From: Alphaproteobacteria bacterium
Lineage (GTDB): Bacteria; Pseudomonadota; Alphaproteobacteria; Micropepsales; Micropepsaceae
Assembly: GCA_947462105.1 (NCBI GenBank)
Contig: CANHNJ010000008.1
Span: 1 to 64,000 of the forward strand
Direction: 5' to 3'
DNA length: 64,000 bases
Under the pieces are notes generated by a model. That model was given only the letters and a program-made list of their open reading frames with translations, was not told the DNA's origin and made no database searches. Shown here in pieces: positions 6,479-15,665 of the stretch. Both the position numbers and the translations under genes were made by a program. Position 1 is the stretch's first letter. Each line of letters starts with the position of its first letter.

Positions 6479-7153
6479 TCAGTCCTGCTCGAGCTCTGCC
6501 GACTGGATGTAGGAATCCGGGGCCGGCGCGCCTTCATCCGGATTGGCCGGCGCGTCCGTGGTTTGCGCCACGCTCTTCAGCGTCGCTCCCTTGCGGGCGT
6601 TGCGCTTCTGCGCCCGTTCCACCTTGGCGGCGGCGCGGCTGACGGCGAGGTCCAGTTCCAGCTGCGAGGTCAGTCCCAGCGTCACCGGGTCCACCGCCTT
6701 GATGTTGGTCGCGTTCCAGTGTGAGCGCTCGCGGATCTTCTGGATGGTGGCCTTGGTGGTGCCGATCAGCTTGATGATGTCGGCGTCGGCCATTTCCGGA
6801 TGGTTCTTGATGATCCAGTAGACCGCGTCCGGCTTGTCCTGGCGCTTGGAGACGGGCGTGTAGCGCGGGGCGCGCTTCTGGCGCACGGTCGGCATCTTGT
6901 GCTTGGGCGCCGCCATCTTCAGGCGTTTCTTGGGGTCTTTCTCGGCGTCGGCGATCTGCTCGCGCGTGAGCTGGCCGGTGGCGACAGGGTCCTGGCCCTT
7001 GATGCCCTTGGCGACGTCCTCGTCGGCGATGCCCTTCACTTCCAGCGGATGCAGACCGCAGAAATCGGCGATTTGTTCGAAGGACAGACCGGTATTGTCC
7101 ACCAGCCAGACGGCGGTGGCCTTGGGCATCAGGGGCTTGTTTTCGACGGCCAT
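6479..7153 (-). CDS. DUF1013 family protein, TrcR-type cell-cycle regulator
   Basis: A 224-residue soluble protein. The N-terminus MPKATAVWLVDNTGLSFEQI followed by ADFCGLHPLEVKGIADEDV is diagnostic of the DUF1013 family, confined to Alphaproteobacteria. Family knowledge: members have been named TrcR, a transcriptional regulator linked to the cell cycle; I am only moderately sure of that name for this protein. A central helix-turn-helix-like stretch (ADIIKLIGTTKATIQKIRER) would fit DNA binding. It is divergent from the DUF1192 gene, and rcdA lies just beyond, an arrangement seen in other alphaproteobacteria. Confidence 0.8.
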   Translation of the reverse strand: MAVENKPLMPKATAVWLVDNTGLSFEQIADFCGLHPLEVKGIADEDVAKGIKGQDPVATGQLTREQIADAEKDPKKRLKMAAPKHKMPTVRQKRAPRYTPVSKRQDKPDAVYWIIKNHPEMADADIIKLIGTTKATIQKIRERSHWNATNIKAVDPVTLGLTSQLELDLAVSRAAAKVERAQKRNARKGATLKSVAQTTDAPANPDEGAPAPDSYIQSAELEQD

Positions 7154-7714: not shown

Positions 7715-8218
7715 ATGCAGCAGGATAGCGACGCGCTGAACGGCATGACGCCACAGGATTTTGTCGGCTCGGCGCTGTTTGACCGCACCTTCGATGAAGG
7801 CATGGCGCTGGTCGAAGAGACCGCCCGTTATCTCGATGGCCGTGGCCGCGATGAAGCGCGGGCCCTGCCGCGCAAGGCTTCGATGCTCTATGCCGGTGAA
7901 AGCATGCGCGTCACCACCCGCCTGATGCAGGCGGCAAGCTGGCTGCTGGTGCAGCGCGCGGTGCGCGATGGCGACATGGATGCGGATCAGGCGGCAGGCG
8001 AACGCTATCGCCTGGGCTCCAAGGAAATCTGCCTGGGCGCCTGCGCCGAAAGCACCGACATGCTGCCGGTGGCGCTGCGCGAGCTGCTGGGCCGCAGCGA
8101 CAGCCTGTATCGCCGCATCGCCCGGCTGGACGATGTTCTGTTCAACGAGGGTGTTATCGCTGCATTAGGCGCGCGCGATCACCAGAGCCGCCTGGCGCAA
8201 GCCTTCGGCTCCGACTGA
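7715..8218 (+). CDS. rcdA: RcdA-type adaptor (DUF1465), regulator of CtrA degradation
   Basis: In Caulobacter, RcdA is an adaptor that helps deliver CtrA to the ClpXP protease at the swarmer-to-stalked transition. The 167-residue product shows the DUF1465 core: an N-terminal helix region, YAGESMRVTTRLMQAASWLL, and LGSKEICLGACAESTDMLP. The length fits the family. ATG 7715 is preceded by GAGGGG. ctrA itself is 3.5 kb away, so both partners are in the window. A bidirectional terminator follows. Confidence 0.85.
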   Translation: MQQDSDALNGMTPQDFVGSALFDRTFDEGMALVEETARYLDGRGRDEARALPRKASMLYAGESMRVTTRLMQAASWLLVQRAVRDGDMDADQAAGERYRLGSKEICLGACAESTDMLPVALRELLGRSDSLYRRIARLDDVLFNEGVIAALGARDHQSRLAQAFGSD

Positions 8219-12630: not shown

Positions 12631-12642
12631 GACTCTTGATTC
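12631..12642. promoter_or_regulatory. paired GANTC (CcrM-type) methylation sites upstream of ctrA
   Basis: GACTC (12631-12635) and GATTC (12638-12642) are two bases apart, about 180 bases upstream of the ctrA start and about 90 upstream of the fliI remnant. In Caulobacter a GANTC in the ctrA P1 promoter couples transcription to methylation state; the same logic is inferred here. Confidence 0.6.
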
Positions 12643-12730
12643 GATTTGTTAAGTTTACCGGCATTTAAAGTCTTGGCCGCAATATGCGGATAACGGGGCG
12701 CGCAGAAGGCGGGTCTTACCGAGGATTTTT

Positions 12731-13042
12731 ATGCGCGCGCTTCTCAAAGACATCGAAACCGTCCTCCCGCTGACCCGCTTTGGCCGGGTGGCCCGAATCG
12801 AGGGCCTGGGCGTGGAAGTTACCGGCGCCCTGGGGGCGGTCCGGATGGGTGGCAATTTCCATATAAGTATCTGCCATTTAAGAACAATTTCTGGTGAAGT
12901 GATCGGCTTTCGCGATGGCCGTGCTCTGGTGATGCCGCTGGGTCCGCTGGAAGGTATTGCCCTGCGCGCCCGGGCCGATTTCGAGGACAGGGCCTGGGAC
13001 GTCGCGGCGCGCACCGCGATGACCAGGGCGGAGACCATGTAG
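12731..13042 (+). pseudogene. fliI: fliI remnant: N-terminal domain of flagellar export ATPase
   Basis: The frame begins MRALLKDIETVLPLTRFGRV and continues with VEVTGALGAVRMGG, GEVIGFRDGRALVMPLGPLE and GIALRARA, a clean match to the N-terminal beta-barrel of FliI (about 80 residues). At about 12975 the similarity stops, far before the Walker motifs, and the frame ends at 13042. FliI is normally about 440 residues. A ribosome site (GAGGA) is still present. The sequence past the junction is the fliH remnant read backwards, so a deletion/inversion joined two flagellar genes. Nothing functional is expected. Confidence 0.82.
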
Positions 13043-13215
13043 TTGGTGCGGGCAGCGGCGCGGGTTTCGCCTTCCGCATGTGCGGTGGCCTGCAGCGTCT
13101 CGATTTCCTCGACGCTGAGCGTCTTCTTGCGGCGGCGCTCCTCGTCCGGCGTGCGGCGTTCGCCGCCGCCGGCGTTGAACTCGGTTCCGAAGGTGAATTT
13201 GGGGTTGGCGGACAT
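12976..13215 (-). pseudogene. fliH: fliH remnant: N-terminal part of flagellar assembly protein
   Basis: On the minus strand from ATG 13215 the product starts MSANPKFTFGTEFNAGGG and continues with RTPDEERRRKKTLSVEEIET and LQATAHAEGETRAAART, the conserved start of alphaproteobacterial FliH. Near 12976 it runs into the inverted fliI fragment. Its start overlaps the preserved fliG stop (TGATG), keeping the ancestral fliG-fliH junction. Only about 80 of the roughly 200 or more residues remain. The open frame running on to 12655 is an artefact of reading through fliI antisense. Confidence 0.75.
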
Positions 13216-13250
13216 CAGTAGATCAACTCATCTTCGTTGCCTCCGCCGGC
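13215..13250 (-). pseudogene. fliG: fliG remnant: last codons of flagellar motor switch protein
   Basis: Minus-strand codons ending at TGA 13217-13215 read AGGGNEDELIY-stop, which looks like the acidic C-terminal tail of alphaproteobacterial FliG. It directly precedes and overlaps the fliH start, as in intact fliFGHN operons. At about 13250 the sequence switches to the flgL/flagellin fragment in the other direction. It is too short to be sure alone; the context makes it convincing. Confidence 0.6.
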
Positions 13251-13499
13251 ACGGTGACCCAAAACCTGACGGCCGCCACAGCCCGCAATGGCGGCGTCTA
13301 CAACCAGCTCCAGAATGCGCTGGGCCAGCAGGACACCATGAAGACGCTGTATGGCGGTTTTATCGAGAAGGTGCAGGACACCGATATGGCACAGGCCGTC
13401 ACCCAATTGTCCCTGAATCAGACCGCCCTGCAGGCGGCGCTGCAGGTTACTGCCACGCTCAACCACTTGTCTTTGCTGAATTATCTTCCGATCAGCTAA
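13251..13499 (+). pseudogene. flgL/flagellin remnant: C-terminal helical domain
   Basis: The last ~80 codons include VQDTDMAQAVTQLSLNQTAL and VTATLNHLSLLNYLPIS, the conserved C-terminal helix of flagellin/hook-associated proteins (LNQTALQA and SLLNYL are hallmarks). The N-terminal part of the gene is missing; upstream sequence is the inverted fliG tail. FlgL is more likely than flagellin because of the SLLNYL end, but I cannot separate them. With the fliI, fliH and fliG scars it shows a collapsed flagellar cluster. Confidence 0.75.
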
Positions 13500-13545: not shown

Positions 13546-14637
13546 ATGCCCAAGCAGCGCATTGTCATTGCCATGTCGGGCGGCGTCGACTCCTCGGTCG
13601 CCGCGGCGCTGGTCGCACGCGCCGGGCACGAAGCCATCGGCGTCACGCTGCAGCTCTATGGCGCGGCTGCTTCGGCGCGCAAGGGCGCCTGCTGTGCCGG
13701 GCAGGACATCCTTGACGCCAAGCGCGTCGCCGAAAAGCTCGGCATTCCCCACTACGTCCTGGATTACGAGGAACGTTTCCGCAAGGCAGTGATCGAGAAC
13801 TTCGCCGACACCTATGCCAAGGGCGAGACGCCGGTGCCGTGCGTCACCTGCAACGAGAAGGTGAAGTTCGCCGACCTGCTTGATACCGCGCGCGAATTGG
13901 GCGCCGAGGCGATGGCCACCGGCCATTATGTCCGCCGTGTCGAAAGCGCGAACGGGGCGCAGCTTCATACGGCGGCGGAAAGCGCCCGCGACCAGAGCTA
14001 TTTCCTTTTCGCCACGACGCAGGCGCAACTCGACTATCTGCGTTTCCCGGTTGGCGAGATGCCCAAGGCCGAAGTGCGTGCCATCGCCGCCGAGCTGGGG
14101 CTGGTGACTGCGGCCAAGCCCGACAGCCAGGATATCTGTTTCGTGCCGGATGGCCGTTATACCACGGTGATCGACCGTCTGCGCCCCTATGCGGCGCGCC
14201 CGGGCGAGATCGTTGATCTTGGCGGCACGGTTGTTGGCCGCCATGACGGTATCACCCATTTCACCGTCGGCCAGCGCAAGGGCCTGGGCCTGTCCGGCAA
14301 TGGTGAGCCGCTGTTCGTATTGAAGCTTGATGCGGCGCAGGCCCGCGTGGTGGTGGGGCCGCGTTCGGCGCTGGCCTCGACGGTTTTCACCCTGCGCAAC
14401 GTCAACTGGCTGACCGCCGCCAATGGTCCCATCGACTGCCAGGTCAAGGTGCGCTCGATGCGCCCGCCCGTGCCGGCGTGGGTCATGCCGCTGGACGGTG
14501 GCGCCGCGCGTGTCGAACTGAAGTCGCCGGAAGATGCGGTGGCGCCCGGCCAGGCCTGTGTCTTTTATGACGGCGCGCGCGTGCTGGGTGGTGGCTGGAT
14601 CGCGGCGGCTGCGCCTGTGATGGCACACGTCGCGTGA
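13546..14637 (+). CDS. mnmA: tRNA-specific 2-thiouridylase MnmA
   Basis: MnmA thiolates U34 in tRNA-Lys, -Glu and -Gln using sulfur relayed to its catalytic cysteines. The 363-residue product has the PP-loop [13 protein letters not shown] near the N-terminus, C102 in [10 protein letters not shown], the ATGHY motif, and the second catalytic Cys C198 in [11 protein letters not shown]. The length is normal and the gene is intact, unlike the decayed sequence on both sides. Its stop overlaps the GTG start of the broken acetyltransferase. Confidence 0.96.
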
Positions 14638-15277: not shown

Positions 15278-15311
15278 GCCACGCGCGCCCGCGCCACGCT
15301 TATATTAGCGC

Positions 15312-15665
15312 ATGACCGTCACACTCTCTGATATCCGCGCTGCCGCCGATGCCATTTCGGGCGCGGTACTGCGCACGCCGATGCGCCATTCGCGCACCCT
15401 CTCGGTAATCGCGGGGGCAGAGGTCTATCTCAAGTTCGAGAACCGCCAATTCACTGCTTCCTTCAAGGAACGCGGCGCGCTCAACCGGCTGCTGACGCTG
15501 GATGCGATCGCGCGCGTTCGCGGCGTGGTGGGGCCGCTCAAGCCCAATTGGGAAATCGCCGATATTATCTGGGCCTATCCCGCCGCGCCGCCCACGGGCT
15601 GCACGCCCGCCACCGCCCGGCGCCTGGCCGAATTGCGCGGCGCGCCCGTCAGCCCGCATTGGTAA
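15312..15665 (+). pseudogene. truncated threonine dehydratase (ilvA-like) with foreign tail
   Basis: Residues 1-73 match the start of PLP-dependent threonine dehydratase: LRTPMRHSRTLS, VYLKFENRQFTASFKERGA (K52 is the PLP lysine) and LNRLLTLDAIARVRGVV. The expected next motif (SAGNHAQ) is absent. From about 15531 the frame continues for 44 residues (PLKPNWEIADIIWAYPAAPP to VSPHW) that I do not recognise. IlvA-type enzymes are about 320-500 residues, so over two thirds is lost. This looks like a deletion scar joining ilvA to the end of another gene. Confidence 0.7.

Follow-up and report, generated by a model that had tools for sequence, protein, structure and literature searches.

Within the window, a 64,000-nucleotide stretch of the draft genome G000 (2.17 Mb in 41 contigs, 98% complete), the interval of ~770 bases between ctrA and mnmA is made up of fragments of the four flagellar genes fliI, fliH, fliG and flgL, all of which match well above chance (Table 1). 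The initial annotation had proposed these four fragments, and both HMM and tblastn searches bear them out. The flanking CtrA is 97% identical to that of G030, a flagellated member of the same genus that served as the intact reference. The fliI fragment matches the NCBIfam model FliI_clade3 (E=2.3e-7), and residues 1-87 of G030 FliI align with the span given in Table 1 at 71% identity (tblastn, E=2.5e-30); the gene had been recognized correctly, and its retained part is 87 codons long instead of the ~80 first estimated. The fliI frame continues into the antisense fliH and reaches a stop at 13042. The length of the fliH fragment, obtained from NCBIfam FliH and from alignment, agrees with the ~80 codons reported earlier. 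The stop codon of fliG and the ATG of fliH share base 13215, and the identical 1-base overlap is present in G030 (locus L041, base 9918), which confirms the native fliG/fliH overlap that had been noted along with the last ~11 codons of fliG. The fliG tail, AGGGNEDELIY-stop, resembles the fliG C-terminus of relatives (..AGGSGDDELVY).

Table 1. Features in and around the ctrA–mnmA interval (window positions).
Feature	Position	Strand	Basis and remarks
rcdA homologue (DUF1465), intact	7715..8218	+	Pfam PF07323, E=2.1e-49
ctrA, intact, 237 aa	11743..12456	-	Response_reg + Trans_reg_C; left boundary of the presumed collapsed island
34-bp element TTGATTCGATTTGTTAAGTTTACCGGCATTTAAA, GANTC + TTAA half-sites	12636..12669	.	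alignment of 20 ctrA upstream regions
fliI 5' fragment, codons 1-87 of ~444	12731..12991	+	HMM + tblastn
fliH 5' fragment, about 76-80 codons	~12987..13215 (HMM match reaching ~12976-12990)	-	NCBIfam FliH, E=4.7e-9, residues 4-80
fliG 3' end, last 11 codons + stop	13215..13250	-	sequence match to the C-terminus of relatives
flgL 3' fragment, last ~84 codons	about 13248..13499	+	TIGR02550, E=3.8e-13; Pfam Flagellin_C, E=2.9e-7
mnmA, intact	13546..14637	+	75% identical to G030 MnmA; right boundary of the presumed collapsed island
motA scar: ilvA (threonine dehydratase) N-terminus fused to NUDIX C-terminus	15288..15662	+	gene order in L056, L046, L042

The last fragment had been described as ~80 codons of either flgL or flagellin. 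We assigned it to flgL, not to flagellin, because TIGR02550 is the best equivalog and because of the synteny flgK-flgL-mnmA; it matches the C-terminus of G030 FlgL at 60% (tblastn), and flgL lies next to mnmA in G013, G015, G030, G036 and G010. Pairwise alignment of the draft assembly sequence with that of the sister species G007 placed the two junctions at ~12987-12992 and ~13245-13250, refining the earlier positions near 12975 and 13250; at ~20-30% divergence from the nearest intact relative, the junction bases and any microhomology can be placed only approximately.

In flagellated congeners, a single island of ~18 kb lies between ctrA and mnmA. It is intact in G013, G015 and G030, and in G007 it is intact from fliI to fliG, where the contig ends. 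Its left part, next to ctrA, carries fliI, fliJ and a DoxX-like orf on one strand; the middle carries flhA, a sigma54-activator gene (FlbD-like), fliN, fliH, fliG, fliF, sciP, flgE, flgD and fliK on the other strand; flgK and flgL follow at the right end in the orientation of fliI and fliJ, and then mnmA. The fragments in G000 have the same order and orientations as the intact island. Genes of opposite orientation are thus indeed joined at the junctions, as had been noted, in the native pattern of the island and with no rearrangement. Two internal deletions therefore suffice, no inversion is needed, and an inverted rearrangement at the junctions was ruled out. With sizes taken from G030 and G013 coordinates, the first deletion (~7 kb) starts at fliI codon 87 and ends inside fliH, and the second (~10 kb) extends from the fliG 3' end into flgL. 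We are highly confident that a flagellar island collapsed by internal deletions and left the scar now seen between ctrA and mnmA.

Scars with other breakpoints were found at the same site in five further genomes of the genus. In G024, fliI and fliJ are kept almost whole and are followed by the flgL tail (L043, 9829-11582), with fliI broken by an in-frame stop at codon 48. A fliI stub lies directly before mnmA in G014, as do fliI codons 1-55 in G017; G001 has fliI 1-64 and then the whole of flgL, while G003 keeps fliJ with fliI reduced to a few codons. Several of the left breakpoints are clustered, 55-87 fliI codons being retained in 4/6 of these genomes. A tree was built with FastTree on RpoB, CtrA, MnmA and their neighbours, from patchy data with one distant outgroup and with unreliable placement of G034 and G036. 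It groups G000 with flagellated G007 (SH support 1.0), G024 with flagellated G008 (0.95), G014 with G035 (1.0), G001 with G017 (1.0) and G003 with G029 (0.86). The genomes with scars are spread over the tree and differ in their breakpoints; at least five lineages of the genus have therefore lost the island independently. G035 and G029, both FlhA-negative, were left out of this set, since their islands are broken at contig ends within fliI and FliM, FlhB, FliP and FliR are kept. G001, whose ctrA-side island is deleted and whose fliP-flhB cluster and motA are still intact (L048, L196), is an intermediate with a half-collapsed flagellar system. The genomes that lost the island are mostly 2.2-2.7 Mb in size, compared with 2.7-4.8 Mb in most flagellated members, with G003 (3.8 Mb) as the exception; the small sizes are consistent with genome reduction.

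The three longer G000 fragments are free of in-frame stops and frameshifts. The identities of the fliI fragment with G007 at the three codon positions are 0.80/0.93/0.59, a pattern indicating that most of the divergence arose under selection. At outgroup-invariant codon positions 1 and 2 of the fliI stub, the G000 branch has 9 changes against 3 for that of G007, which hints weakly that constraint on the stub may have been relaxed. Since the frames are open, codon constraint is visible and the sister species is flagellated, the earlier suggestion of a fairly recent loss holds in relative terms, and the analysis supports a flagellar loss that is recent when compared with the divergence from G007, as a relative age only.

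Open reading frames and the repeated retention of the fliI 5' end might also mean that the fragments are kept for a function, with the fliI start acting in cis on ctrA or the ORFs encoding small proteins. A conserved element with GANTC and TTAA half-sites just upstream of fliI (Table 1) points in the same direction. This element, however, stops 61 bp short of the fliI start. All 20 ctrA upstream regions that were aligned have it, none with more than a few substitutions and genomes without fliI included, and the ctrA upstream region is retained by all genomes that lost the island. As it is shared by flagellated and non-flagellated congeners, the element is probably part of the ctrA promoter, to judge from this conservation, and probably limits the reach of deletions. 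The first 60 codons of fliI show no excess synonymous conservation (Mann-Whitney p=0.67), and a hidden regulatory element in the retained codons was rejected on this ground. Moreover, G003 lost essentially all of fliI yet kept ctrA and the element, and the codon-48 stop interrupts fliI in G024. We consider a retained function of the fragments quite improbable.

Collapse of the island by deletion is also supported by the rest of the genome. In the 98%-complete draft of G000, whose gaps might still hold a few flagellar genes, flagellin N-domain, FlhA and rod/hook domain are all absent, as are FliG, FliM, FliP and FliR, and a concatenated FliG+FliM+FliP+FlhB+FliR query returned only the tail of FlhB. 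The MotA class was likewise not found in G000, which has only two ExbB/TolQ-type proteins where flagellated congeners have a third, MotA class; the MotA family search also picks up ExbB/TolQ, and the two were separated by copy number and by a low-scoring MotA class missing only in the genomes that lost the island. Both of these losses left their own scars. In G030, G013 and G035 (MotA in L042), motA sits between the ilvA and NUDIX genes, which in G000 are fused (Table 1), with only residues 1-52 of 295 of the PALP domain kept and the remainder of both genes gone. The last 56 codons of flhB (contig C7 of G000; L192, 6689-6856) adjoin a truncated transposase of the IS3 type (PF01527), and this remnant with the flhB tail (L192, 6200-6860; ~92.2-92.9 kb of C7) lies directly upstream of an intact CckA-type hybrid kinase, at the site where relatives have the cluster fliP fliO / flgB flgC fliE fliQ fliR flhB.

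The initial annotation had itself named two findings that would speak against a loss, an assembly artefact at the junctions and complete flagellar copies elsewhere. A MAG-like draft in 41 contigs could in principle hold a chimeric contig that joined pieces of an intact island, but the missing genes are on no other contig of this 98%-complete genome, motA and the flhB cluster have likewise disappeared, each with its own scar, several congeners bear analogous scars with other breakpoints, and the contig that contains the scar, 93.7 kb long, carries ctrA, mnmA and their neighbours in syntenic order; we regard an artefact as very improbable. That the fragments are scraps of a decayed extra copy beside a functional set, as the second FlhA in some congeners (G012, G027) might suggest, can practically be dismissed within the completeness of the genome, since no complete copies were found in G000.

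The collapse of the island would be best explained by a bias towards deletion, acting under relaxed selection in a non-motile lineage whose genome is shrinking. Two internal deletions hollowed out the ctrA–mnmA island, a third took motA, and the fliP-flhB cluster beside cckA was lost next to the IS3-type element. Breakpoints presumably halted where the ctrA promoter, mnmA or cckA would be damaged, and because the deletions would have stopped short of these, only the edges of the island remain. The leftover fragments would have no function of their own. sciP, located inside the island, was deleted along with it, and CtrA would now operate without the SciP brake.

The collapse clearly illustrates ordinary reductive evolution, a known process, and flagellar loss itself is common. 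In Rhodobacterales, fla1 clusters were lost sporadically and independently while relatives stayed flagellated (PMC12363192), and the same source reports that in Rhodospirillum rubrum flagellar genes are accompanied by ctrA, cckA and chpT. Like Rhodobacterales fla1, whole flagellar clusters were lost here repeatedly and independently beside flagellated relatives; unlike fla1, the genus of G000 has readable deletion scars flanking ctrA and cckA, and sciP was lost with the island. What the genus adds is this co-loss of SciP together with a series of separate scars that flank ctrA and cckA, presenting several stages and separate events of flagellar loss at one ctrA-adjacent locus.

The island gene between flgE and fliF belongs to DUF1153, that is, SciP (E=2.4e-41), a family also matched in Caulobacter, where SciP is a CtrA inhibitor. 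Profile and protein-query searches found no DUF1153 in G000 and G024, and in G001, G014 and G017 only divergent, partial paralogues (53-56% identity). Canonical SciP is present in flagellated members with the region assembled, and G003, which lost the island, also keeps one. Unlike Caulobacter, G000 keeps CtrA without SciP. The initial annotation held that CtrA and RcdA are intact and that the cell-cycle functions of CtrA outlived flagella. Their intactness stands, the latter by its PF07323 match, and CckA also appears intact from its domain order (HisKA-HATPase-receiver) and orthology to G030; the SciP-regulated circuit, however, is incomplete, with CtrA and CckA present and SciP missing. CtrA directly activates sciP in C. 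crescentus and S. meliloti (PMC4433202), and the title of Tan et al. 2010 (cited in PMC4433202) calls SciP, the Caulobacter inhibitor, an essential transcription factor. As SciP is absent from G000 despite the retained CtrA, its role is dispensable in this genome.

We extended the comparison to 212 alphaproteobacterial genomes that are >=95% complete, and a CtrA orthologue was found in 140 of them. Within this subset, 78/110 flagellated genomes carry SciP, compared with 5/30 of those that are non-flagellated (Fisher p=1e-7); collapsed by family, the counts are 48/22 vs 5/18 (p=2e-4). Both are plain correlations, with kinship treated by family at most. In 52/80 genomes carrying both genes, SciP is encoded no more than 12 kb from flhA. 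Hitch-hiking by linkage and loss of need are both compatible with the correlation. In two exceptions, G104 and G161, SciP adjoins ctrA itself, which, on gene position, would fit a location effect. No paper tying SciP to flagellar gene clusters or flagellar loss was found in the literature searched, which was that outside subscription papers. We give roughly even chances to the reading that the role of SciP is tied mainly to motility, that across Alphaproteobacteria it is mostly encoded in flagellar clusters and tends to go with flagella even where CtrA stays, and that the cell-cycle functions of CtrA are independent of it. The disappearance of SciP with flagella while CtrA, RcdA and CckA were retained suggests how the CtrA network may be divided between motility and the cell cycle. 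If SciP does serve mainly motility, the separate losses would be natural knock-outs, and they would in addition delimit the minimal ctrA promoter. Near rcdA and ctrA, positions 6479-7153 encode TrcR (transcriptional cell cycle regulator, PF06242).
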